Source of the DNA: Nocardioides pocheonensis
Lineage (GTDB): Bacteria > Actinomycetota > Actinomycetes > Propionibacteriales > Nocardioidaceae
Length of the DNA: 64,000 nt
Assembly: GCF_003725535.1 (NCBI RefSeq)
Contig: NZ_RJSF01000040.1
Span: 65,582 to 129,581 of the forward strand
Direction of reading: 5' to 3'
The notes beneath the pieces are model-generated. The model was given only the letters and a program-made list of their open reading frames with translations. It did not search any database and was not told where the DNA came from. The position numbers were made by a program, and so were the translations under genes. Below are positions 3,670 to 25,687 of the stretch, in pieces (the stretch's first letter is position 1; every line of letters starts with the position of its first letter).

Positions 3670-4547
3670 AAGATCTCGGGCAGCTCGCTGGCCCGGCCGG
3701 TGAACTCCGGCTCACGCTTCTCCAGGAACGCCGCCACGCCCTCCTTGCCGTCGCCCACGGACGTGTGCCACATCGCCAGGCTGTCGGCCCGATGCGCCTC
3801 GAGCGGGTTCGGCACGGCGGCATTGCGGTAGAGCAGCTGCTTGGCCAGGCCGAGGGCCACGGGAGAGCGCCCCACCACGAACGACCGCGCCAGTGCGTAC
3901 GCCGCGTCGAGCAGCTCCTCGGGCTCGTGCACCGAGCGGACCAGCCGGCCGGCCAGCGCCTGCTCGGCGGTGAGGATCTCCGCGGAGTAGACCCACTCCA
4001 GCGCCTGCTGGATCCCCACGATGCGGGGGAGGAACCAGGTCGACGCCGCCTCGGGCACGATGCCGAGCCTGCCGAACACGAAGCCGATCCGCGCCTTCGT
4101 GGAGGCCAGCCGGAGGTCCATGGCGAGGGTCATGGTGGCGCCGATGCCGACGGCAGGACCGTTGATCGCGGCGATCACCGGCTTCGGGCAGGCGTGGATC
4201 GCCAGGGTCACCTTGCCGCCGGTGTCGCGTACCCCGCTCTGGAAGGGCTCCTCGGTGAGTCGCTCGCGAAGGTCGGCGGGCGTGGGCGCGGCGTCCTCGT
4301 CGAGGCCGAAGACGTTGCCCTCGGCGGAGAGGTCCATGCCGGCGCAGAACGCACGGCCTGCGCCGGTGACCACGATCGCGCGGATCGTGTCGTCGCGCGC
4401 GGCGTCGAGGAAGAACTGCTCGAGCTCGTGGGCCATCGTCACCGTGAACGCGTTGAGCGCGTCGGGCCGGTGGAGCGTGAGCGTGGCGATGCCGTCGTCG
4501 TCGATCGCGACCGTCAGGGTCTCGAGGCCGGCGTAGGAGGAGGTCAC
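3666..4547 (-). CDS. Enoyl-CoA hydratase/isomerase family protein (crotonase fold)
   Basis: This is a 293-residue crotonase-fold enzyme. It has the oxyanion-hole segments GAGRAFCAGMDLSAEG and GPAVGIGATMTLAMDLRLAS and an acidic residue in RLGIVPEAAST. The family hydrates enoyl-CoA thioesters in fatty-acid beta-oxidation or related acyl-CoA chemistry. GTG 4547 overlaps the stop of the upstream LCP gene (GTGA), an odd pairing of wall assembly with acyl-CoA metabolism. Confidence 0.93.
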   Translation of the reverse strand: MTSSYAGLETLTVAIDDDGIATLTLHRPDALNAFTVTMAHELEQFFLDAARDDTIRAIVVTGAGRAFCAGMDLSAEGNVFGLDEDAAPTPADLRERLTEEPFQSGVRDTGGKVTLAIHACPKPVIAAINGPAVGIGATMTLAMDLRLASTKARIGFVFGRLGIVPEAASTWFLPRIVGIQQALEWVYSAEILTAEQALAGRLVRSVHEPEELLDAAYALARSFVVGRSPVALGLAKQLLYRNAAVPNPLEAHRADSLAMWHTSVGDGKEGVAAFLEKREPEFTGRASELPEIF

Positions 4548-5674
4548 GGGTTCGTCATTCCTGTCGGTTGGCACAGGCTCTTCGGGATGTCGCCGGTGCG
4601 GTCGGTCTTGATCAGCTTCATCAGCGCGAGCGCGCGCTGGGTGTCCCAGTGGACGGCGAGGTCGCGGATCGGCATCGAGCAGGTGAGGCCGTCCTTGCCG
4701 TTGACCCGGGTCATCGCCCAGGCGAACCGCGCCAGGTCGACGACGCCGCTGTCCTTGTCGACCTTGAGCGACGAGGTCGCGGCCATGTTCACCCTCCAGT
4801 AGCGGAAGGGGTTCAGGACGGTCCAGGGCGACTTCACCTCGGAGCCGATCGCGCTGACCACCTCGCGCTGGTGCTTCGCCCGGTCGATGTCGCCGATGCC
4901 CGAGGTGTGCCGGGAGCGGGCGTAGCCGAGGGCCGTGATGCCGTTGACGTGCTGGCACCCCTTCTTGATGTTCAGGTTCGCTCGACGGTCGACCATCCGC
5001 TGCGTCGGGCAGATCTCCACGCCGCCGACCGCGTCCACGGAGTTCACGAAGCCGCCGAACCCGATCTCGACGTAGTGGTCGATCCGGACGCCTGTCGTCT
5101 GCTCGAGGGTCTGCACCAGGAGCGGCGCGCCGCCGTACGCGAACGCGGCGTTGATCTTCGTGGTGCCGTGACCGGGGATCGGCACGATCGAGTCGCGCGG
5201 GATCGACAGCAGCAGGCTGGGGCCGGAGCCGGTGTGCAGCAGCATGATCGTGTCGGTGCGCTGCCCGACGTCGCCGACGCCGCCGGTGCCGAGCCGGCGG
5301 TTCTCGGCCTTGGTCAGGCCCTTGCGGCTGTCGGAGCCGACGAGCAGGTACGTCGTGCCGGGCTGCTCGGCCGGCCGCTGCCCGCTGGGGGTGTCGTTGA
5401 CCTGGTCGATGCGCTTCCAGGCCAGGATCGGGACGACCACCAGGTAGGCGATCCAGGCCACGAGCAGCAGGATCACGAGCTTCCCGTACGGGAAGCGTCG
5501 CCTCTTCCTCGGGGTGACGGTGGGGGCGACCGGCGGTGGGGTCGGGCGCTGGGGCGCGCGCGCGAAGTGGTCGCCCCTCGGCGCACGCGGCATCACCCGG
5601 GTCGGCTCCGGGTCGGGAGGGGCGTCCTTGCCGTAGAGCCAGTCGAACTCCGGCGGATCGTGACGGTCCGGCAT
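4544..5674 (-). CDS. LCP (LytR-CpsA-Psr) family cell-wall polymer ligase
   Basis: This is a 376-residue membrane protein with a proline-rich cytoplasmic N-terminus, one membrane segment (about 72-95, KLVILLLVAWIAYLVVVPIL) and an extracellular LCP domain from about residue 106. Conserved LCP features are TTYLLVGSDSR, GQRTDTIMLLH, LLSIPRDSIVPIPGHG and ALGYARSRHTSGIGDIDR. LCP proteins move lipid-linked glycopolymers onto peptidoglycan. The galactan genes lie nearby. A minus-strand TACCGT box (5682-5687) lies 7 nt before the ATG, which suggests a leaderless transcript. Confidence 0.93.
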   Translation of the reverse strand: MPDRHDPPEFDWLYGKDAPPDPEPTRVMPRAPRGDHFARAPQRPTPPPVAPTVTPRKRRRFPYGKLVILLLVAWIAYLVVVPILAWKRIDQVNDTPSGQRPAEQPGTTYLLVGSDSRKGLTKAENRRLGTGGVGDVGQRTDTIMLLHTGSGPSLLLSIPRDSIVPIPGHGTTKINAAFAYGGAPLLVQTLEQTTGVRIDHYVEIGFGGFVNSVDAVGGVEICPTQRMVDRRANLNIKKGCQHVNGITALGYARSRHTSGIGDIDRAKHQREVVSAIGSEVKSPWTVLNPFRYWRVNMAATSSLKVDKDSGVVDLARFAWAMTRVNGKDGLTCSMPIRDLAVHWDTQRALALMKLIKTDRTGDIPKSLCQPTGMTNP

Positions 5675-6245: not shown

Positions 6246-7712
6246 ATGCATGCGCAGGATGCCCGGGTGGAGCTCGGCCGGATCCGCTTCCGCCGCGCCC
6301 TGGCGCTCATGGTGATGACCCTCGTGCTGCCCGGCTCGGCCCAGCTGGTGGCCGGTCGCAAGGAGGTCGGCCGGATCGCGATGCGGATCTGGTTCGGTCT
6401 GATCCTCACCGGCGTGTGCCTCCTGCTGCTCGCGGTGATCTCGAAGAGCTTCGTGTTCTGGTTCGCCTCGAACCCGTTCTGGCTCGGGCTCGTGCGCTTC
6501 GGGCTGATGGCGCTCGCGGTCGGCTGGGCGTTCCTGCTGGTGGACGCCTGGCGCATCGGCGAGCCGCTGGCGCTGCGCCAGCGGCAGCGCCTCGCGATGG
6601 TGGGCATCAACGGGGTGCTGTGCTTCTCCGTGGCCGGGAGCCTGCTGTTCGCCTCGCACGTGGTCAGCGTGCAGAAGGACTTCCTCGCCGCGATGTTCTC
6701 CAGCGGCCCGGCCAGCGGCTCCCACGACGGGCGCTACAACATCCTGCTGCTCGGCGGTGACTCCGGCGCCGACCGCTGGGGCCTGCGACCGGACAGCATC
6801 ACCGTCGCCAGCATCGACGAGCAGACCGGCAAGACGGTGCTCTTCGGCCTGCCGCGCAACATGCTGAACTTCCCGTTCGCCAAGGGCTCGATCATGGCCG
6901 AGCAGTTCCCCCGCGGCTACAACTGCGGGACGACCTGCGAGCTGAACTCCCTGGCCACCTGGGCGGCCGACCACAAGGCGCTGTTCACAGGCGTGCAGAA
7001 CCCCGGGGTCGAGGCCACCACCGAGGCGGTCGAGGGCATCACGGGTCTGAAGATCAACTACTACGCGATGGTGAACCTCAAGGGGTTCCAGAAGATGGTG
7101 GACGCGGTCGGCGGAGTGACCCTGAACGTGCGCGACCGGATCCCGATCGGCGGCGTCGGCGGCCCGGTGACCGGCTACATCAAGCCCGGGAAGCGCAAGC
7201 TGAACGGCTTCCAGACACTGTGGTTCGCGCGGTCGCGTGAGTCGGCCGACGACTACTCGCGGATGGCCCGGCAGAAGTGCGTGATGAACGCGATGCTGCA
7301 GCAGCTGAGCCCGCAGAAGGTCGTGCTGAAGTTCGAGAAGATCGCCAAGGCCAGCGAGGACCTCATCTCCACCGACGTGCCGCTCTCCGAGGTCGACCAC
7401 TTCATCGACCTGGCGCTCAAGGCGCGCAGCCAGCCGGTGCGCACCGTCTCGTTCGTGCCCCCGCTGGTGAACACCTCCCACCCGGACATCGCCCAGATCC
7501 AGGAGATCGTGCAGACGGCGCTGAAGGCCAAGAACGCGACCAGGGCGGTCTCGGCCGGCAAGGCCGCGAAGGGCACGCAGTCGACCGGGTCCACCCCGCC
7601 GAGCGGCGCGCCCAAGCAGCCGGCCAGCCAGGGCACCACCGGCGGCGCGATCGGCAGCATGCACGCCGGGTACGCCGCGAACCAGGCCGACGACCTCGGC
7701 TCTGCCTGCTGA
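6246..7712 (+). CDS. LCP family protein with a multi-span N-terminus
   Basis: This is a 488-residue protein. It has three or four membrane segments in the first ~145 residues, an extracellular LCP domain from about 163 (YNILLLGGDSGADRWGLRPDS, VLFGLPRNM, LWFARSRESADDYSRMARQ), and a low-complexity Ser/Thr/Gly tail ending in Cys. Most LCP proteins have one membrane segment, so the extra ones mark a distinct subfamily. It stands directly before the galactan glycosyltransferase genes, consistent with attaching that polymer to the wall. GATACT (6233-6238) lies 7 nt before ATG 6246. Confidence 0.92.
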   Translation: MHAQDARVELGRIRFRRALALMVMTLVLPGSAQLVAGRKEVGRIAMRIWFGLILTGVCLLLLAVISKSFVFWFASNPFWLGLVRFGLMALAVGWAFLLVDAWRIGEPLALRQRQRLAMVGINGVLCFSVAGSLLFASHVVSVQKDFLAAMFSSGPASGSHDGRYNILLLGGDSGADRWGLRPDSITVASIDEQTGKTVLFGLPRNMLNFPFAKGSIMAEQFPRGYNCGTTCELNSLATWAADHKALFTGVQNPGVEATTEAVEGITGLKINYYAMVNLKGFQKMVDAVGGVTLNVRDRIPIGGVGGPVTGYIKPGKRKLNGFQTLWFARSRESADDYSRMARQKCVMNAMLQQLSPQKVVLKFEKIAKASEDLISTDVPLSEVDHFIDLALKARSQPVRTVSFVPPLVNTSHPDIAQIQEIVQTALKAKNATRAVSAGKAAKGTQSTGSTPPSGAPKQPASQGTTGGAIGSMHAGYAANQADDLGSAC

Positions 7713-7745: not shown

Positions 7746-9530
7746 GTGCCCTCCCCAGCCAGCGTCGTCGCCGTCGTCGTGACGTGGAACCGGCTCGCGC
7801 TCCTGCAGGAGTCGCTCGCCGCGGTCCACGGGCAGACCCACGCGCCGAGTGCGATCGTCGTGGTCGACAACGACTCGACCGACGGCACGCGTGAGCTGCT
7901 CGACTCGTCGTACGGCGCCGAGCTGGGCCTCGACGTCGTCCACCTCCGCCGGAACACCGGGGGAGCGGGCGGCTTCGCCGTCGGGATCGAGCAGGCCCTG
8001 CTGCACCACCCGGACCTGATCTGGCTGCTCGACGACGACACCGTGCCGACGCCGACGGCTGCGGAGGAGCTGGTGCGCGCCTGGACCGGCTATGCCGCGG
8101 ACGGGGGCGGGCGCCCGGCCGTGCTGGCCAGCAAGGTGGTGTGGACCGACGGTCGCGACCACCCGATGAACACCCCCCGGCGCAAGCCGGGTGCGAACGC
8201 GGCCGAGTCCGCCGCGGCTGAGCGGGTCGGCGCCGTGCCGATCCGGTCGGCGTCGTTCGTCTCGCTCATGTGCGACGCCGACCGCGTGCGTGAGCGGGGC
8301 CTGCCCGTCGCCGACTACTTCCTCTGGAACGACGACTTCGAGTACTCCACGCGCCTGGTGCGCGGCGGCGTGGGGCTGTACTGCCCGGCGAGCGTCGTCG
8401 TGCACAAGACGCGGGCGTTCGGCTCGACCGACGCCGACCCGGGCGACCGCTTCTTCTACGAGGTCCGCAACAAGGTCTGGATGTTCTCCCGGTCGCGCAG
8501 CCTCACCGTCCCGGAGAAGGCGCTGTACGGCGCCGCCACCGCCCGCCGCTGGGCCCGGACGTTCGCCCGCTCCTCGAACCGTCTGGTGCTGCGCCGCGCG
8601 CTCGCCCGCGGGCTCGGGGCAGGGCTGCGGCGCCCGCGGCCGAACGCCGTCGTGCTCTCCGAGGCCCGTCCGCCGCGCCCGGAGACCGGCCGACACCAGC
8701 CGTTCACGCTCCTGGTCAGCACCTATGCCCAGGACGACCCCGGGTTCCTGCACGAGGCGGTGCTGTCCTCGACGACGGCCCAGACGCGGCCGCCCGACGA
8801 GGTGGTGCTCGTGCAGGACGGACCGGTGCCCGAGGCGCTGGCGGCCGAGATCAAGCACCTGGTCGCGACCCTGCCGATGCCGGTGCAGCACCTCGCGCTC
8901 CCGCAGAACATCGGCCTCGGGCCCGCGCTCGACGCCGGCCTGGCGGCGAGCAGCCACGAGATCGTGGCCCGGATGGACGCCGACGACGTCAGTCTCCCCG
9001 AGCGCTTCGAGCGGCAGCTCGCGGTGATCGAGGCGGGTGCGGACATCGTCGGCTCGGGGCTGCTGGAGTTCGGGCGCTCGATCGAGGACGTCGTCGGGCG
9101 TCGTACGCCGCCCACGGACCCGGACGAGATCCGCCGCGTGATCCGGTTCCGCGACCCCTTCAACCACCCGACCGTGGTCTACCGGCGCAGCGCGGTGCTC
9201 GCGGCCGGCGGCTACACCGACATGGCCCTGCTCGAGGACTACCTGCTCTTCGCCCGGATGGTCGACGCGGGCGCCGCGCCGGCCAACCTCGCCGAGCCGC
9301 TGGTCTACTACCGGGTGGGGGCCGGGGCCTACGCCCGGCGCGGCGGCACCGCCCTGCTGCGCAGCGAGCTGCGGCTGCAGCGGCGGTTCCGGGAGCTCGG
9401 GATCACGTCACGGGCGGAGTACCTGCGCAACGTCGCGGTGCGTGGCGGGTACCGGCTGGTCCCCGAGGGTGTGAGAAAGGTCGCGTACCGCCGCCTGCTC
9501 GCGAACAGGACGGGTTCGGCTCGCGGCTAG
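7746..9530 (+). CDS. Two-domain glycosyltransferase: GlfT1-like domain fused to a second GT2 domain
   Basis: This is a 594-residue protein. Residues 5-290 resemble GlfT1, the galactofuranosyltransferase that starts galactan: VVTWNRLALLQESL, NTGGAGGFAVGIEQAL, LLDDDTVP (metal-binding DDD near 97) and FLWNDDFEYSTRL. Residues 319-590 form a separate GT-A family 2 domain: LLVSTYAQDDPGF, ARMDADDVSLPERF (DXD near 411) and GGYTDMALLEDYLLFARM. GlfT1 is about 300 residues in mycobacteria, so this is a fusion. The second activity could add another sugar of the linker or a side chain; this is inference. GTG 7746 is 6 nt after TAGGGT. Confidence 0.9.
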   Translation: MPSPASVVAVVVTWNRLALLQESLAAVHGQTHAPSAIVVVDNDSTDGTRELLDSSYGAELGLDVVHLRRNTGGAGGFAVGIEQALLHHPDLIWLLDDDTVPTPTAAEELVRAWTGYAADGGGRPAVLASKVVWTDGRDHPMNTPRRKPGANAAESAAAERVGAVPIRSASFVSLMCDADRVRERGLPVADYFLWNDDFEYSTRLVRGGVGLYCPASVVVHKTRAFGSTDADPGDRFFYEVRNKVWMFSRSRSLTVPEKALYGAATARRWARTFARSSNRLVLRRALARGLGAGLRRPRPNAVVLSEARPPRPETGRHQPFTLLVSTYAQDDPGFLHEAVLSSTTAQTRPPDEVVLVQDGPVPEALAAEIKHLVATLPMPVQHLALPQNIGLGPALDAGLAASSHEIVARMDADDVSLPERFERQLAVIEAGADIVGSGLLEFGRSIEDVVGRRTPPTDPDEIRRVIRFRDPFNHPTVVYRRSAVLAAGGYTDMALLEDYLLFARMVDAGAAPANLAEPLVYYRVGAGAYARRGGTALLRSELRLQRRFRELGITSRAEYLRNVAVRGGYRLVPEGVRKVAYRRLLANRTGSARG

Positions 9531-12752
<3,222 letters not shown>

Positions 12753-12756
<4 letters not shown>

Positions 12757-13778
12757 GGGCCGCGAACAAGGCCGCAACAGCGGCGGCCAGGCAGGCGAAG
12801 GTCGACGAGCGCGGACGCCGTCGCAACGCGGCGCGCAAGGCGCGCCGGCTGATGGAGAAGAAGGCCGACTCGATGCCCGTCGTCGAGCTGCGCGGACCCA
12901 AGCAGGAGCGCGTCGTCGACGCCGAGCTCGTGGATCCCTCGCCCCACGGAGGGCTCGTCGAGGTCTTCCAGCAGCGCTACCTGCTCAGGCTGATCGTCAC
13001 CCGTCAGCTCGCCCAGATGTACGCCGCCTCGCTGCTCGGCCTGCTGTGGTCGTACATCCAGCCGGCGCTGCGGTTCGTGGTCTACTTCGCGGTCTTCGGC
13101 ATCATCCTCAGGACCCATGACTCCACCCCGAACTTCGCGCTCCACCTGTTCACCGGCATGGTGTTCGTGCACTACTTCACCGAGACGTGGAGCGGCGGCA
13201 CGCACTCGATCTGGAACAACCGCACGCTGGTGCTGAAGATGCGCGTTCCGCGCGAGATCTTCCCGGTGGCCTCGATGGTCGTGGCGGCGTACCACACCGG
13301 GCCGCAGGTGCTGATCCTCGGGATCGCCTGCGCGCTGCTCGGCTGGCACTTCACGCTGGTCGGCCTGGCCGCCGGGGCCCTCGGCATGGCGATCCTGATC
13401 TGCTTCTCGATGGCGCTGTCGCTGACCTTCTCGGCGCTGAACGTGTTCTTCAAGGACTTCCAGAACATCGTCTCGACGTTCACGCAGTTCCTGCACTTCC
13501 TCGTCCCGATGATGTACTCGTACTCCTACATCGCGCGGATGGGCCAGGACCACCCGTGGGCCTACCAGCTCTACTTCGCCGATCCCCTGGCCGAGGCGGT
13601 CATGCTGATGCAGCGCCTGTTCTGGGCGCCCACCCTCAAGCCCAGCCAGTACGCCCATGAGTTCCCACCGGACCTGTGGGAGCGCGGCTTCATCATGCTG
13701 GCGGTCTGCGCCGTCATGCTCGTGCTGGCGCAGAGGTTCTTCTCGCGCCTCGAAGGAAAGTTCCCGGAGCGTCTCTGA
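12753..13778 (+). CDS. wzm: Polysaccharide ABC exporter permease (Wzm-like)
   Basis: This is a 341-residue protein with a basic ~80-residue N-terminal extension and then six membrane segments of the ABC-2 type (LGLLWSYIQPALRFVVYFAVFG, LTFSALNVFFKDFQNIVSTF). With the following ATPase it forms the exporter that moves the completed lipid-linked galactan outwards, as Rv3783/Rv3781 do in mycobacteria. GTG 12753 overlaps the glfT2 stop and has a GGAGGG site (12741-12746). Only 1 bp separates it from the ATPase gene. Confidence 0.94.
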
Positions 13779-13779
13779 C

Positions 13780-14559
13780 ATGGCTTCCGAATCGATCGTC
13801 GTGGACCACGTGTCCAAGGACTTCACCATGCAGTACCACCGCACCCTGAAGCAGATGGCGGTGGCCACCATCCGCGGCCTGCCGCTGAAGGAGCACTTCC
13901 GCGCGGTCAACGACGTGTCGTTCACCGTCGAGCAGGGTGAGTCGATCGGCCTGATGGGCCTCAACGGCAGCGGCAAGAGCACACTGCTGAAGCTGATCAA
14001 CGGCGTGATGCGTCCCGACGAGGGTCGTATCCTCACGCGGGGCCGGATCGCCGGCCTGATCGCCACCGGGGCCGGCTTCCACCCGCAGCTGAGCGGCCGC
14101 GACAACCTGTACCTCAACGGCGCGATCCTCGGGATGAGCGAGCCGGAGATCAAGCGCAAGTTCGACGAGATCGTGGACTTCGCCGACATCGGGAAGTTCC
14201 TCGACACCCCGGTCTCGCACTACTCCTCGGGCATGTTCGCCCGGCTGGGCTTCGCCATCGCGATCCACGTCGACGCCGACATCTTCCTGGCCGACGAGGT
14301 GCTCGCGGTGGGGGACAAGCCGTTCAAGAAGAAGTGCATGGCGAAGATGCAGGAGATCCGCCAGCAGGGCACGACGATCTTCTACGTCAGCCACGCCTCC
14401 TCCTCGGTGCGGGCGATGTGCGACCGGGTGCTCGTGCTCGAGTCCGGTCACCTCAACTTCGACGGCGACGTCGAGCAGGGCATCCACTACCTGCAGTACG
14501 ACGACGACGAGGAGACGAAGGAAGCCCTCGCCGACGGCGAGCTCGGCGCAGACGTCTGA
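13780..14559 (+). CDS. wzt: Polysaccharide ABC exporter ATPase (Wzt-like)
   Basis: This is a 259-residue ATPase with Walker A GLNGSGKST, signature YSSGMFARLGFAIA, Walker B DIFLADEVLAVGD and switch histidine YVSHASSS. The GRIAGLIATGAGFHPQLSGRDN stretch is typical of polysaccharide and teichoic-acid exporters. It has no C-terminal carbohydrate-binding domain, so it belongs to the short Wzt class that does not read a terminal sugar modification. ATG 13780 follows the permease stop by 1 bp. A strong terminator hairpin follows the stop. Confidence 0.95.
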   Translation: MASESIVVDHVSKDFTMQYHRTLKQMAVATIRGLPLKEHFRAVNDVSFTVEQGESIGLMGLNGSGKSTLLKLINGVMRPDEGRILTRGRIAGLIATGAGFHPQLSGRDNLYLNGAILGMSEPEIKRKFDEIVDFADIGKFLDTPVSHYSSGMFARLGFAIAIHVDADIFLADEVLAVGDKPFKKKCMAKMQEIRQQGTTIFYVSHASSSVRAMCDRVLVLESGHLNFDGDVEQGIHYLQYDDDEETKEALADGELGADV

Positions 14560-14911: not shown

Positions 14912-17902
14912 ATGGGTATTTCCCGAAGTCGTTACGTCACCATCTGCCAGCAATTCCTGGTCACGGCGGTGGTGCTCGTGGTCGGGCTGTCCGCTGCCGG
15001 TGTCATGACGCTGCAGATCGTCGCCCCGGACGCCGGCGAGCCCCGAGCGACCGGGCTGGCCCCCGCCATCAACGTCTCCGACGCCTACGCGGACACCGCC
15101 CCGGTGAGCCCCAAGGTGCACGAGGTCAAGGTCGCCGGCATCGACGCCCAGGCGGCCAAGGAGATCCCGGGCGTCGTGACCACGCCCAAGGCGCCGGCCG
15201 CCGGCTCCGCTCGCACGGGGAAGGCAGCGGAACCGGACCAGCTGGTCGCCCTCTCGGCGCCGACCCCGGTGCACGGCTACGGCACCGTCGGCGTGACCTG
15301 GAGCCCCTCGACCCACCTCGCCGACGGCCAGATCAAGGTGCAGGTGCGCACCCTCAAGGACGGCACCTGGTCGGGCTGGACGAACGTGAAGTACGACGCG
15401 GAGGAGGGCCCGAGCACGGACGGGAAGGCCGAGGGTGGCCGTCAGGTCCGCCCCGGCACCGACCCGCTGCTGATCGGTGAGGTCGACGAGGTCCAGATGA
15501 AGGCCGAGACCGTCGACGGGAAGCTCCCCGCCGACCTGCAGCTCGCCGTGATCGACCCGGGCACCGGCAAGGTCACCAAGCAGGCCGCGGCGATCGACAC
15601 CTCCAAGCTCCCGGCCAGTGACCGCACCGCGACGAGCGCCGCGCCGATCGAGCAGACCGCGCCGGCCGAGACCACCAGCACCAGCACGACGGCGTCGGGG
15701 GACACCGCGACCCTGGCGGCGATGACCGTGGCCCCGAAGCCGGTCATCTACTCGCGCGCCCAGTGGGGCGCGAACGAGGCGCTGCGCGACAAGAGCTCGC
15801 TGCGCTACGGCACGATCCAGACGGGCTTCATCCACCACACCGTCAACGCGAACGACTACACGGCCGAGCAGGTGCCGGCACTGATCCGCGGCATCTACGC
15901 GTACCACACGCAGACCCGCGGCTGGAGCGACATCGGCTACAACTTCCTGGTCGACCGGTTCGGCCGGATCTGGGAGGGCCGGTACGGCGGTGTCGACCGC
16001 CCGGTCGTCGGCGCCCACACCCTCGGCTACAACGAGTACTCCTTCGCGATGTCCGCGATCGGGAACTACGAGATCGCGCAGCCGCCGCAGGCCGTGCTCG
16101 ACGCCTACGCGTCGCTGTTCGCCTGGAAGCTGTCGATGTACAACATCCGCGCCGACGCGAGCCACCTGTGGGTGAAGGACCGCTACCTCAACGCGATCAA
16201 CGGCCACCGCGACGTCGGCCAGACGGCGTGTCCCGGCAAGTACCTCTACGCCAAGATCCCGGGCATCCGGGTCGCCGCACAGACCATCCAGAACAACGCG
16301 CAGACGCCGATCGACCCGGTGACCCTGCCGAAGATCCCGCCGCCTGCCGGCCTGCCGTCACCGACGCAGGCCCCGGCAGCGGCCCCGGCCCAGCCGGCGA
16401 TCTCGTTCCCCCAGCGCTCGAGCGTCGTCGGATCGGGATGGCCCGACATGTTCGGCATGGCGCCCAACGGGACGATCCAGGTGGTCCCGACCGAGGGCGT
16501 CGCGGACTTCACGACCCGGGTCACCAACGGTGCCGGCTGGAACAACATGGACCAGATCGCCGCGGTCGGCGACGTCACCGGCGACGGCAGGTCCGACGTG
16601 CTCGCGAGGAGCGCGAAGACCGGCGTCACCCGGGTCTACCCGGGGGACGGCGCCGGCCGGATCGGCCGCGGCATCGCCGCCACCAAGGCCTTCGCCAACG
16701 TCCAGATGTTCGTCGGCGCACGCGACTTCAACCGCGACCGGCACCTCGACGTGGTCGCTCGCAACAAGGCGGGCGCCCTCCTGCTCTTCCGCGGCGCCGG
16801 CAACGGTGTTTTCAAGAAGCCGATCGTGCTCCGCAGGAACTGGCCGTTCACCAAGATGGTCGGTGTCGGCGACCTCAACGGCGACCACCAGCCCGACCTG
16901 GTGGCCACCACGGACGGCCGCTCGCTGTACCTGGTGCCGGGCGCGTCGCGAGGCACGTCCGTCGGTCGGCCGACCCGGCTGATCACACTGCCCAAGGCCG
17001 CGAACGCGCTCCTCGGCTGGGGCGACGTGAACAACGACGGCCGCACCGACGTCCTCGCCCGGGTGGGGTCCCTCACGACCGGCTACTCCGGCAACGGTGC
17101 CTCCAAGCTGGGACAGGGCTTCGGCCCCTTCGACGCCCTCGCCGGGCTGAAGAAGGTGACCCTCGCGCCGATGATGGGCTCCTACGCTCCCGACGTCGTG
17201 GGACGCGACGCCGCCGGACACCTCGTGGTGATCGCCAACAACGGGCTGCGTACGGCGTCCGCGCCGCTCGCCTCGAACCTCGCGGTCGCGGGGGTCAGCC
17301 AGCTGCTCAACGTGGGCGACTGGGACCGTGACGGGAACGCCGACGTGGTCGTGCGAGTCGGTGGCGGCGACCAGCTGGTGCTGTACCCGGGCCTGGGCAA
17401 CGGGAAGTTCGGCCGGTCGCGCTCGCTGGGCGCCGGCTGGAAGAACGTGACCCGTCTCGCCGCGGTCGGCGACGTCACCGGCGACGGTGCTCCCGACCTG
17501 CTCGGCGCGACCGCGAACGGACCCATGACGATCTACCCGGGCGCCGGCACCAACGGCTTCGCGGCGCCCGTCCTCGCTCCGGCATCCATGCGGACCTACA
17601 ACCAGATCGGCGCGCCCTCGTGGTCGCCCGGTGGGGCTGTGTTCGCTTCCGCCGACGGCAGTTTCGTGCCGTCGACGGGCACGGATCCGGCCTCAGCCCT
17701 GCGGATGGCAAACGGCACGGTGGCCCCCGCCTACGACACCTACATCGGCGTCGGTGACGTCAACGGTGACGGGGTGGCGGACCTCCTGGCCAGGGAAAGT
17801 GGTACCGGAATCATGTGGTTGCTCCCGGGGAAGACATCCGGCGGCTTCGGCTCGCGGATGTGGGTGGCAAACGGATTCGCCGGGTATCAGCTGGTCGGCT
17901 GA
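14912..17902 (+). CDS. Secreted PGRP/amidase_2 domain protein with FG-GAP (VCBS) repeats
   Basis: This 996-residue exported protein has a signal segment (about 10-35, QQFLVTAVVLVVGLSAAGVM), a Thr/Ala-rich spacer, then a peptidoglycan-recognition/N-acetylmuramoyl-L-alanine amidase domain (about 278-453) with zinc ligands His308 or His309, His432 and Cys440. The C-terminal half carries at least seven Ca-binding-like repeats (DVTGDGRSDVL, DLNGDHQPDL, DVNNDGRTDVL and others), probably a beta-propeller. It should cut or bind peptidoglycan. ATG 14912 is chosen for its GGAGA site; GTG 14861 lies in frame inside a repeat. Mycobacteria also keep a PGRP gene (Rv3811) next to glf. Confidence 0.92.
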   Translation: MGISRSRYVTICQQFLVTAVVLVVGLSAAGVMTLQIVAPDAGEPRATGLAPAINVSDAYADTAPVSPKVHEVKVAGIDAQAAKEIPGVVTTPKAPAAGSARTGKAAEPDQLVALSAPTPVHGYGTVGVTWSPSTHLADGQIKVQVRTLKDGTWSGWTNVKYDAEEGPSTDGKAEGGRQVRPGTDPLLIGEVDEVQMKAETVDGKLPADLQLAVIDPGTGKVTKQAAAIDTSKLPASDRTATSAAPIEQTAPAETTSTSTTASGDTATLAAMTVAPKPVIYSRAQWGANEALRDKSSLRYGTIQTGFIHHTVNANDYTAEQVPALIRGIYAYHTQTRGWSDIGYNFLVDRFGRIWEGRYGGVDRPVVGAHTLGYNEYSFAMSAIGNYEIAQPPQAVLDAYASLFAWKLSMYNIRADASHLWVKDRYLNAINGHRDVGQTACPGKYLYAKIPGIRVAAQTIQNNAQTPIDPVTLPKIPPPAGLPSPTQAPAAAPAQPAISFPQRSSVVGSGWPDMFGMAPNGTIQVVPTEGVADFTTRVTNGAGWNNMDQIAAVGDVTGDGRSDVLARSAKTGVTRVYPGDGAGRIGRGIAATKAFANVQMFVGARDFNRDRHLDVVARNKAGALLLFRGAGNGVFKKPIVLRRNWPFTKMVGVGDLNGDHQPDLVATTDGRSLYLVPGASRGTSVGRPTRLITLPKAANALLGWGDVNNDGRTDVLARVGSLTTGYSGNGASKLGQGFGPFDALAGLKKVTLAPMMGSYAPDVVGRDAAGHLVVIANNGLRTASAPLASNLAVAGVSQLLNVGDWDRDGNADVVVRVGGGDQLVLYPGLGNGKFGRSRSLGAGWKNVTRLAAVGDVTGDGAPDLLGATANGPMTIYPGAGTNGFAAPVLAPASMRTYNQIGAPSWSPGGAVFASADGSFVPSTGTDPASALRMANGTVAPAYDTYIGVGDVNGDGVADLLARESGTGIMWLLPGKTSGGFGSRMWVANGFAGYQLVG

Positions 17903-22912: not shown

Positions 22913-25687
22913 GTGAAGGTCACCGCGCTCCTGGTCAGCCACAACGGTGGCCGCTGGCTGCCCGCGGTGCTCGCCGGGCTCGAGCGGTCCACCCGGCTGC
23001 CCGACGAGATCATCCGGGTCGACACCGGGTCGACCGACGACTCGGTCGCCCTGCTGGAGCAGACCTTCGGGCCGGGAGTCCTCCGGCTCGACGACCGCAC
23101 GACGTACGCCGCGGCGGTCCGCGCCGGCCTGGAGCATGCTCCGGCCGCCGAGCCCGACGAGTGGGTCTGGCTGCTCCACGACGACGCCAACCCCGCACCG
23201 GACGCCCTCGCGGCCCTGGCCGCGGTCGCCGAGGCCGCCCCCCGTGAGGTCGCCGTCCTGGGGCCGAAGATCCGGGAGTGGCCGTCGCTGAAGCGCCTCC
23301 TCGAGGTCGGGGTGACGCTGACCGGCACGGGTCGCCGGGAGACCGGGCTCGAGCGCGGGGAGTACGACCAGGGCCAGCACGACGAGTCCCACCGCGTGCT
23401 CGCCGTGAACACCGCCGGGATGCTCGTGCGCCGCGACGTGCTCGAGTCGGTCGGCCTGGACGACTACCTGCCCGTCCTCGGCACCGACCTGGACTTCGGT
23501 TGGCGGGTGGCGCGTGCCGGCGGAACCACGATGGTGGTGCCCGAGGCCGTCGTCTTCCACGTCGAGGCGTCGCGCCGGGGCCGCCGGGACTCCCGCCTGG
23601 TGCACCACCCCGGTCGTCAGGACCGCGAAGGCGCGCAGTACACCCTGCTGGTCAACAGCCCGGCGTGGACGATCCCCTTCCGGTCGGCCCGCATGGTCAT
23701 CGGCGCGCTGCTCCGTGCGCTGGGACTGCTCCTCGTGCGGGCTCCGCGCGAGGCGGTGGACGAGATCGTCGCGCTGCTCAGCGTGTTCGGCCATCCCGGG
23801 CGCGCGTTCAAGGCCCGCCGCGCGCGGGCGGGCGCCGCGGTGGTCCCGCACGCCGACGTGCGTCCCCTGCTCGCGCCGTTCTGGCTGCCCTACCGGCACG
23901 GCCTGGACTACGTGAGCGACGTCGGTGTCGCGATCGCGGACAGCGTCCGTGAGGAGGCCGAGCGGCGGCGCCCGCCCGGTCGCGAGGACGAGGGCATCGC
24001 CTTCCGCGTGCTCCGCTCGCCGACGTTCTGGTCCCTCGTAGCGAGCCTCGTGCTCGCGGTGGTCGCCGGTCGTGCGCTGCTCAGCGGCGGCCCGCTGCAG
24101 GGCGGAGCGCTGCTGCCCGCGCCGGACGGTGTCGGTCACTGGTGGCGGGTGTGGGCGGCGAGCCACCAGAGCCTCGGCACCGGGTCGGCCGCTCCCGGAC
24201 CCGCGTACCTGCTGCCCCTGGCGGTGGTCGGGACGCTGTTCCTCGGGCACGCCGGCCTGGTCGTCGACCTGCTCTTCGTGCTCGCGGTGCCGCTGGCGTT
24301 GCTCGGCGCGCTCCGGTTCTTCCGGCGCGTCACCACCGGCCGATGGGCGCCCCTGTGGGGTGCGGCGGCGTACGGGCTGCTGCCGGTCGTCTCCGGTGCC
24401 GTGGCGCAGGGCCGGATCGGGACCGTCGCGGGCGCGGCGATCCTGCCCTGGCTGGCGACGGCCGCCCTCGGCCTGGCGGCGAGCGGTCCCGACGCCGCCG
24501 TACGCCGGTGGCGGGCGGCCTGGCGCACGGCGCTCGCCGCGGGCCTCCTGGTGTCGTTCGTCCCGCCGGCCGCGCCGGTGATCGTGCTGCTCGTGCTGTT
24601 CGCCGCCGTGACCGGCGCCGCCCGAGGCCGGGCTCGCGAGCTCGTCGTGGTGGTGGCGATGCCGATCCTGCTCGTCCTGCCCTGGGCCGTCGCCACACTG
24701 TCCGCCCCCGGGGCCTGGCTCGTCGAGGCGGGCCGCGCCGGCGCGATCGCCACCGACCCCGGTGTGTGGGACCTGCTGCTCGGCCGGGGCGGCGGACCCG
24801 GCGATGCGCCGGCCTGGCTCACCGCCGGCCTCCCGCTCGCCGGCCTCGTCGCGCTGGTCCGGCCGGACACCCGCGCGCGGGTGCTCCGGGTGTGGGTCGT
24901 GATCCTCGCGGCTGCGATCGTCATCGCCGCCGAGTCCCGGGTGCCGGTGTCGCTGCCCGGCGTACCGGTGGAGTTCCGGCCGTGGCCGGGGTTCCTGCTC
25001 CTGCTCATGCAGGCAGGGTTCGTGCTCGCCGCGGTGATCGCCGCCGACGGCGCCGTGAAGGTCGCCTCGGAGGCCAGCTTCGGCTGGCGGCAGCCGGTGG
25101 CGGCGGTGGCCACGGTCGCTGCCCTGGCCGCTCCGGTGGCCGGCGCGGTCTGGTGGGTCGGGCACGGTGACGACGGTCCGGTCGCCCGTGAGGAGCCGCG
25201 CGACGTGCCGACGTACATGCAGGAGCTGGCGAGCGGCAAGGACACCAGTGGCGTGCTCGTGGTCACCGGTGGGCTGCGCCAGGGCATCGACTACCGCGTG
25301 CTGCGCTCCGGTGTCCAGCAGCTCGGCGACGACGGCGTGCTCGCCCTGACCACGCCGAGCCGCTCGTTCACCGAGCTCGTCGCGCGGTTGCTCTCCTCCG
25401 CTCGGTCCGACGACGGCCAGCTGCTCGCGTCGTACGGCGTGCGCTACGTCTACGCGCCGGCACCGGTCGCGGGCCCCGTGATCGGGGCGCTCGACTCGGC
25501 GAACGGCTTCGGCGGAGCCAGTGCACCCGGCCGCGGCTCGCGCGCATGGGTCGTCCAGGGACGGACCACGCTGAGCTCGCTCGACCACGACCGTGCGTTC
25601 CTCCGGCCCGTGCTCGTGCTGGTCGACCTCCTCGCGCTGGCCAGCTGCCTCGTCCTCGCCGCACCGGAGAGGAGGCGCCGCCGATGA
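22913..25687 (+). CDS. Family 2 glycosyltransferase fused to a multi-span membrane region
   Basis: This is a 924-residue protein. Residues 1-230 form a GT-A domain (LLVSHNGGRWLPAVLAGL, VDTGSTDDS, LLHDDANPAPDAL, VLGTDLDFGWRVARAGG). After a linker, a long region from about 365 to 760 holds around ten membrane segments, followed by an extracellular domain (RDVPTYMQELASGKD) and a last membrane segment near 905. The layout suggests transfer of sugar to a lipid or protein at the membrane. The acceptor is unknown. GTG 22913 is 8 nt after TAGGCT. It overlaps the DUF5719 gene by 4 bp (ATGA). Confidence 0.88.
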   Translation: MKVTALLVSHNGGRWLPAVLAGLERSTRLPDEIIRVDTGSTDDSVALLEQTFGPGVLRLDDRTTYAAAVRAGLEHAPAAEPDEWVWLLHDDANPAPDALAALAAVAEAAPREVAVLGPKIREWPSLKRLLEVGVTLTGTGRRETGLERGEYDQGQHDESHRVLAVNTAGMLVRRDVLESVGLDDYLPVLGTDLDFGWRVARAGGTTMVVPEAVVFHVEASRRGRRDSRLVHHPGRQDREGAQYTLLVNSPAWTIPFRSARMVIGALLRALGLLLVRAPREAVDEIVALLSVFGHPGRAFKARRARAGAAVVPHADVRPLLAPFWLPYRHGLDYVSDVGVAIADSVREEAERRRPPGREDEGIAFRVLRSPTFWSLVASLVLAVVAGRALLSGGPLQGGALLPAPDGVGHWWRVWAASHQSLGTGSAAPGPAYLLPLAVVGTLFLGHAGLVVDLLFVLAVPLALLGALRFFRRVTTGRWAPLWGAAAYGLLPVVSGAVAQGRIGTVAGAAILPWLATAALGLAASGPDAAVRRWRAAWRTALAAGLLVSFVPPAAPVIVLLVLFAAVTGAARGRARELVVVVAMPILLVLPWAVATLSAPGAWLVEAGRAGAIATDPGVWDLLLGRGGGPGDAPAWLTAGLPLAGLVALVRPDTRARVLRVWVVILAAAIVIAAESRVPVSLPGVPVEFRPWPGFLLLLMQAGFVLAAVIAADGAVKVASEASFGWRQPVAAVATVAALAAPVAGAVWWVGHGDDGPVAREEPRDVPTYMQELASGKDTSGVLVVTGGLRQGIDYRVLRSGVQQLGDDGVLALTTPSRSFTELVARLLSSARSDDGQLLASYGVRYVYAPAPVAGPVIGALDSANGFGGASAPGRGSRAWVVQGRTTLSSLDHDRAFLRPVLVLVDLLALASCLVLAAPERRRRR

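Follow-up and report, generated by a model that had tools for sequence, protein, structure and literature searches.

The galactan cluster of Nocardioides pocheonensis contains a single open frame that encodes two complete GT2 glycosyltransferase domains in one chain, a real fusion of a GlfT1-like domain (D1) with a domain of an uncharacterised GT2 family (D2). The frame lies in a stretch of 64,000 nucleotides, here called the window, and its features are collected in Table 1. Among relatives, this conserved D1/D2 partnership has switched repeatedly between fused and split forms. The pair is quite probably a two-site module that starts galactan or builds its linker.

Two glycosyltransferase domains in one open frame

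Pfam Glycos_transf_2 matches the 594-residue chain twice, once in each half, and both halves exceed the Pfam cut-off of 23.3 bits when scanned singly (66.4 bits for residues 1–300 and 64.6 bits for residues 315–594). Because 18 of the 24 genomes of the genus show the full-length match in one frame, and the fused form accounts for 43 of the 79 named loci, the fusion is not an assembly accident. Judged from their sequences, both halves are GT2 enzymes of the GT-A type that retain a DxD and a putative acidic catalytic motif. By analogy with GT2 enzymes, the WNDDFE motif of D1 is presumed to be catalytic, and the ED motif of D2 is likewise presumed to supply the catalytic base.

The motifs are well conserved. 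In an alignment of 36 fused proteins, of which the other 35 are 47–87% identical to the window protein, the invariant positions include D96–D98, W194-N195-D196-D197 and E199 in D1, and D411, D413-D414, E497-D498 and an additional DG (D358-G359) in D2. A wider set that includes split genes keeps the D1 motif residues in 70–71 of 71 rows and D358, G359, D411, D413, D414, E497 and D498 in all 74 D2 rows, which indicates that the second domain retains its donor-binding residues. The preliminary description, which had proposed a complete second GT-A domain with its own DxD in the same chain, is thus borne out. A PR motif, located in 42 of the 43 fused loci, is separated there from D2 by 11–52 residues. 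The C-terminal stretches of both domains are basic (R or K make up 8 of the 29 residues for D2 and 11 of the 34 for D1), which fits work at the membrane surface on a lipid-linked acceptor.

Table 1. Positions in the window of the fused gene, its domains and motifs, and the neighbouring galactan genes
Feature	Position	Strand	Basis
LCP family glycopolymer ligase, directly upstream of the fusion	6267..7712	+	PF03816 87.1 bits (longer ORF from 6231 scanned)
Fused two-domain GT2 glycosyltransferase	7746..9530	+	594 aa; one open frame, GTG start, no internal stop
D1, GlfT1-like GT-A domain, aa 1-300	7746..8645	+	NF050113 83.4 bits, below cut-off 330; fold like 9nj0
D1 DDD metal/donor motif, aa 96-98	8031..8039	+	70 of 71 D1 rows, 1 gap
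D1 WNDDFE motif, aa 194-199, presumed catalytic	8325..8342	+	W194, N195, D196, D197, E199 in 71 of 71 rows
Linker between D1 and D2, aa ~301-317	8646..8696	+	lowest in-chain model confidence at 312-314
D2, second GT-A domain, aa 318-594	8697..9527	+	Pfam Glycos_transf_2; model of aa 315-594
D2 DADD (DxD) motif, aa 411-414	8976..8987	+	D411, D413, D414 in 74 of 74 rows; A412 is S in 2
D2 ED motif, aa 497-498, presumed catalytic base	9234..9239	+	74 of 74 rows
Glf, UDP-galactopyranose mutase	9567..10751	+	TIGR00031 340.7 bits, above cut-off 303.75 (ORF from 9546 scanned)
GlfT2, galactan polymerase	10741..12756	+	PF19320 167.2 bits, PF17994 104.4 bits
Wzm-like ABC permease	12753..13778	+	PF01061; NF050109 31.3 bits, below cut-off 380 (longer ORF from 12513 scanned)
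Wzt-like ABC ATPase	13801..14559	+	PF00005; NF050108 151.8 bits, below cut-off 400 (longer ORF from 13657 scanned)

Genomic context

The fused gene starts 33 nt after the end of the LCP gene and is followed on the same strand by the genes for Glf, GlfT2, Wzm and Wzt. The mycobacterial-type set for galactan synthesis and export (Glf, GlfT2, Wzm, Wzt and LCP) is therefore found together, with Wzm and Wzt scoring under the NCBIfam galactan cut-offs. The order LCP-fusion-Glf-GlfT2-Wzm-Wzt-amidase-ManC is also found in Nocardioides marmoriginsengisoli (L060). In a mycobacterial-type genome, RmlD (identified by a scan) and WbbL are neighbours of an LCP-like gene, and the block they belong to terminates with FbiB-FbiA-like genes; the names in that block other than RmlD are our assignments from similarity by eye and from synteny. 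The galactan cluster thus seems to occupy the position that RmlD-WbbL have in that genome.

Several other genes of the window can be mentioned here. A second LCP family gene lies near the galactan cluster on the opposite strand (4544-5674, −; PF03816 144.7 bits). Adjoining Wzt is a gene for an Amidase_2 protein with FG-GAP repeats (14969-17902, +), and genes resembling it come after Wzt in several galactan clusters. Further downstream, a 924-residue protein (22913-25687, +) has an N-terminal GT2 domain and is distantly similar to D1 and to WbbL.

Identity and structure of the two domains

The preliminary description had named the first half GlfT1. The family resemblance holds, with 83.4 bits against the NCBIfam GlfT1 profile NF050113, over profile positions 1–195 of 290 only, and an hhalign probability of 99.85%; orthology does not, as the curated cut-off of 330 bits was missed and D1 has a clade of its own. 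In a quick tree of 80 rows, which included a hand-chosen 25 of the 71 D1 rows and drew a long-branch warning from the program, four groups formed one clade each: D1, mycobacterial-type GlfT1, and the groups A and B described below; the 25 D1 rows were split off by a branch with SH-aLRT 100 and the 18 GlfT1 rows by another (98). The cut-off and this long-branched tree led us to reject D1 as a strict GlfT1 and to assign it to a GlfT1-like family. D2 is an uncharacterised GT2 family, whose profile scores 6.2 bits to GlfT1 and 6.7 bits to WbbL. A relationship of D2 to WbbL was rejected on the latter score. By eye, D2 has ED where the GlfT1-like group has a motif of the W/F-x-DD-x-E type.

Structure prediction, also proposed in the preliminary description, gave a two-domain AlphaFold2 model of the whole fusion from the 36-protein alignment (mean pLDDT 89.4, pTM 0.63); D2 alone (residues 315–594) was modelled with mean pLDDT 92.5 and pTM 0.89. 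D1 superposes on Nocardia brasiliensis GlfT2 with a bound Galf trisaccharide (9nj0) with Z 22.9 and rmsd 3.4 over 280 residues (VIA-align). D2 fits many GT-A enzymes about equally well (VIA-align; 6p61, Z 23.8 over 186 residues; AvpGT, 23.6 over 254; WrtF, 23.5 over 227), and its structural neighbours include WrtF, TarP and RmlT, which we take to be enzymes that extend or decorate glycans. The neighbours of D2 use differing donors and the GT-A fold does not give sugar specificity, so an assignment of the donor from the fold was dropped and no donor is claimed; two of the fold-match lists used cover 50 of 1506 and 50 of 1562 matches. K4 chondroitin polymerase (K4CP, 2z86), which spans both domains, ranked first in the VIA-align comparison; its Z is 23.8 but its rmsd is 14.2 over 425 residues, so that the relative placement of D1 and D2 differs or is unsure.

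A search of the PDB with a profile of the fusion family matched 27 sequences, whereas a phmmer search of the PDB with the single fusion protein returned nothing at 0.001. The best profile match falls in D2 and is 9jma (AvpGT), an entry named undecaprenyl-PP-oligosaccharide glucosyltransferase; the enzyme is also named GalNAc(5)-diNAcBac-PP-undecaprenol beta-1,3-glucosyltransferase. It is the best PDB match of D2 both by sequence and among the Foldseek matches listed (best 50 of 1562), but the identity is about 20% and the pathway is a different one.

Distribution of fused and split forms

A survey of fusions in the Nocardioidaceae had been proposed as well. In a sample of 196 genomes of the family, 26 encode a one-frame fusion and 13 carry the halves as neighbouring separate matches; one genome has D1 only (G041) and another has the halves on two contigs (G066), for a total of 41 of 196 genomes with any form. 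Absences in the family and class searches are soft because few candidates were scored per genome (six first-look candidates in the family search, and 11–12 in the class searches for GlfT1-like and D2 proteins).

The 79 named loci comprise 43 in which D1 and D2 are fused, 24 with adjacent genes, nine with separate genes within the locus and three with one half only (L097, L099 and L117). The adjacent class includes L094 and L095, whose frames are interrupted; damage or sequencing error, and not a true split, may explain these two. Open frames served as the basis for the architectures, since the GC-based gene caller predicted nothing in the low-GC locus L078 and elsewhere overlooked genes or placed their starts wrongly. 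The preliminary description had considered that most relatives might encode the halves as separate unrelated genes. This is not the case: where the halves are separate (33 loci), 24 pairs are adjacent on one strand and the other nine lie elsewhere in the same locus, two of them as divergent neighbours. Hosts of the fused form include Nocardioides, Marmoricola, Arsenicicoccus piscis, Paenarthrobacter, Sinomonas, Psychromicrobium, Isoptericola, Cryobacterium and Actinomyces, and those of the split form Leucobacter, Oerskovia, Arsenicicoccus cauae, Actinomadura and Thermomonospora. Glf or GlfT2 is present in 55 of the 79 loci. Fifty of these loci span 20 kb of sequence or more; among them, 38 have Glf and/or GlfT2, and 12 have neither within about 10 kb.

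Split genes mostly overlap. Among 15 split junctions, read as called, the overlap is 4 nt in four, 8 nt in six, 23 nt in one and 107 nt in one, and the remaining three have gaps of 1, 6 and 54 nt; in L101, L102 and L192 the DNA contains an alternative start codon from which an 8-nt overlap would likewise result. In a tree built from 68 pairs (24 split and, with the window, 44 fused), the fused or split state needs six changes, a count that does not separate gains from losses and may be affected by frame errors in drafts and metagenome bins. At least five of the changes are forced by starred branches, the 5–95% range over 200 bootstrap trees is 6–7 changes, and a single fused clade is rejected (p-AU 4.6e-52). 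The tree covers rows that have both halves, a D1 longer than 250 residues and a D2 longer than 230; L189 (from G326, which has a true GlfT1) was omitted. The six changes suggest that the state is easily gained or lost. In the clade of the window, all 23 rows are fused.

A second pair of transferases in the same slot

In three genomes of the genus (G003, G004 and G015), two genes designated A and B replace D1-D2 between LCP and Glf. An A+B pair before Glf is also found outside the genus, where three were mapped, with 1–3 extra genes after LCP in G144 and G065 and none in G042. The two genes share a 4-nt overlap in each of the five loci read. Both are GlfT1-like, and A is the nearer to GlfT1, with 112–156 bits, below the cut-off. 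In one draft genome (G021), A and B form a single open frame of 652 residues (L147 8469-10346, −), which is a second joining of two slot transferases. Two adjacent matches were likewise seen in G022, whereas the search of the 24 genus genomes gave no match in G006. The A+B pair of the sister genomes and of genus g6 resembles D1-D2 in its slot between LCP and Glf, its two GT2 genes and its one-frame joining in G021, but differs from it in that A and B are both GlfT1-like whereas D2 comes from another GT2 family.

Co-occurrence with galactan and linker-sugar genes

In a class sample of 197 genomes, for which the three counts were treated as one sample by matching genome handles, GlfT2 (PF19320, E ≤ 1e-20) was found in 41, GlfT1-like proteins (E ≤ 1e-30) in 30, of which 18 were over the curated cut-off, and D2 (E ≤ 1e-25) in seven. 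All 30 GlfT1-like genomes and all seven D2 genomes are GlfT2-positive. The association of D2 with GlfT2 is significant by Fisher's exact test with the window genome (p = 1.1e-5) and without it (p = 5.3e-5), uncorrected for shared ancestry. Six GlfT2-positive genomes (G038, G286, G310, G318, G334 and G350) had neither a GlfT1-like nor a D2 match at the cut-offs used, and other starters may therefore exist. In G326, the D2 gene stands first on the strand of Glf-GlfT2-Wzm-Wzt, and a bona fide GlfT1 gene (378 bits) is its divergent neighbour; in G065, a D2-like gene lies outside the galactan cluster (L195 9396-10241, −).

WbbL was found at E ≤ 2.7e-119 (63–74% identity) in four of four mycobacterial-type genomes. 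The D2 genomes G229, G269, G271, G278 and G326 gave no close WbbL (best match 1.0e-33, 35%); G271 and G278 have WbbL-like proteins of 35–36% identity, and G326 has a weak WbbL-like gene in two pieces (E 1.3e-17) together with an RmlD over the cut-off. Because G326 has D2, a true GlfT1, a WbbL-like gene and RmlD, its D2 may not be a counterpart of WbbL. Among the 24 genus genomes no close WbbL was found either: 13 had a match at 1e-10, the best being 2.1e-28 (30%), and the best match of the window genome (5.4e-11) is the gene for the 924-residue protein.

For the dTDP-rhamnose pathway, the search covered RmlD. At E ≤ 1e-50, RmlD was found in nine of the 18 fused genus genomes, including that of the window, where an RmlD over the cut-off lies about 17 kb upstream of the window. 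G002, G007, G012, G016, G019 and G020 had no RmlD match at 1e-10, and the match was weak in G014, G017 and G018; G002, G007, G019 and G020 are all rated 100% complete. RmlD frequencies in fused (9 of 18) and A+B genus genomes (4 of 5) are not significantly different (Fisher p = 0.34). Since the D1-D2 genomes tested yielded no close WbbL, and nine of the 18 fused genus genomes lack a strong RmlD, a rhamnose linker appears doubtful. The same observations lend indirect support to the suggestion, made in the preliminary description, that the fusion sets a different linker structure. WecA-type proteins (PF00953) gave two or three matches in each of 11 genomes. Compared with the WecA-like protein of the mycobacterial-type reference G270, nine of the ten other genomes have a protein 41–46% identical, a comparison made without the candidate of the window genome.

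Possible role of the fusion

We see an even chance that the fusion is a two-active-site starter enzyme for a galactofuranan exported by Wzm/Wzt, in which D2 adds the second sugar of the linker and D1 the first Galf. In this scheme, a WecA-type enzyme would make lipid-PP-HexNAc, D2 would attach the linker's second sugar, its donor probably being a UDP-hexose and not dTDP-rhamnose, and D1 would follow with one or two initial Galf residues. The chain would then be polymerised by GlfT2, exported by Wzm/Wzt and attached to the wall by an LCP enzyme. Fusion would fix a 1:1 dosage of D1 and D2 and may allow a lipid-bound intermediate to be handed between the sites. The parts of the scheme differ in strength: D1 is rather likely to be the Galf initiator, and the chance that D2 provides the linker sugar before D1 falls just short of even, the order of action being one that we infer. 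The scheme draws on the cluster context, the confinement of D2 to GlfT2-positive genomes in the class sample, the gene order in G326, the fit of D1 to GlfT2, the best PDB match of D2, the WecA-type genes, the WbbL and RmlD results and the short overlaps of split genes. Weighing against it are the gene content of G326, the WbbL-like proteins of G271 and G278, the strong RmlD of nine fused genus genomes, the 12 loci with neither Glf nor GlfT2, the six GlfT2-positive genomes without a GlfT1-like or D2 match at the cut-offs used, and the placing of the D2-like gene in G065.

Alternatively, D1 could place the initial Galf while D2 contributes a branch, a cap or a second residue to the nascent galactan, in which case the fusion would serve decoration and not linker assembly. 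The presence of D2 beside a true GlfT1 in G326, the D2-like gene away from the galactan cluster in G065, and the presumed glycan extension and decoration roles of its structural neighbours WrtF, TarP and RmlT are consistent with this; the finding that the D1-D2 slot between LCP and Glf holds two GlfT1-like genes in sister genomes, and that no close WbbL was found for the linker step, point the other way, and we regard decoration as rather unlikely. The GlfT1-like nature of both slot genes A and B, together with the two linkages that GlfT1 makes according to PMC10951656, would agree with D1 and D2 both being Galf transferases that share the linkages (to the linker sugar, then 1-5) made by GlfT1 alone in mycobacteria. 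The 6.2 bits of the D2 profile to GlfT1 and the ED in place of a W/F-x-DD-x-E type motif make such sharing improbable. Least probable is a D2 that acts as a rhamnosyltransferase equivalent to WbbL: it would be consistent with the missing close WbbL in D1-D2 genomes tested and with the RmlD upstream of the window, but a strong RmlD is lacking in nine of the 18 fused genus genomes, of which four are rated 100% complete, and the D2 profile reaches 6.7 bits to WbbL.

A further explanation, compatible with all of these, is that the fusion is a trivial joining of overlapping operon genes whose effect is equal dosage only. The 4–8-nt overlaps of most split genes and the six state changes on the tree speak for it and the fused state kept in 23 of 23 rows of the window's clade speaks against it; on balance we consider it plausible, if somewhat short of even. 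A more far-reaching reading, which we hold to be less likely than not, is that in galactan-walled actinobacteria interchangeable two-enzyme starters (WbbL + GlfT1, A + B, D1 + D2) precede a conserved GlfT2-Wzm-Wzt core, and that D1-D2 is a bifunctional protein making a linker free of rhamnose, which would be a new primer chemistry for wall galactan.

Comparison with known systems

Mycobacterial and corynebacterial GlfT1 (NF050113) resemble D1 in having a GT2 GT-A domain and a GlfT2 partner in galactan clusters. Mycobacterial GlfT1 is a single-domain protein, however, whereas D1, which has a clade to itself (SH-aLRT 100), comes either fused to D2 or paired with it. According to PMC10951656, the mycobacterial galactan-peptidoglycan linker is GlcNAc-Rha, and GlfT1 adds two Galf after WbbL; two GT2 enzymes thus act there between WecA and GlfT2, as is proposed for D1-D2. 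The difference is that D2 is not WbbL-like and that D1 and D2 are in one chain or in linked genes. A two-hybrid map of galactan enzymes (PMC4213368) marks WbbL-GlfT1 as no interaction, and GlfT1 and GlfT2 are reviewed in PMC7278926.

Two transferase domains per chain are also found in K4CP, other tandem GT-A fusions and Klebsiella WbbM, a Galf/Galp enzyme combining GT111 and GT8 (PMC12269835, on galactan synthases), and polymerase modules occur in one or several polypeptides according to PMC11231755. The tandem enzymes and WbbM are polymerases, whereas D1-D2 has a separate GlfT2 polymerase next door; alternating polymerisation in the style of K4CP is unlikely for D1-D2 given the adjoining GlfT2 gene. 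In open-licence PubMed Central, we found no paper on GlfT1 or GlfT2 together with Nocardioides, and no title among the matches listed names such a fusion.

If D1-D2 makes another linker, the starter step would be a swappable module, and natural fused and split pairs, such as those of Arsenicicoccus piscis and A. cauae, would allow a test of the effect of the fusion on galactan assembly. Near the split D1-D2 pair of A. cauae lies a D2-like paralogue (L105 14314-15180, +). In three other loci, the gene just upstream of the split D1 looks by eye like a sulfotransferase gene (L100 8598-9989, L110 8739-9986 and L107 8680-9939).
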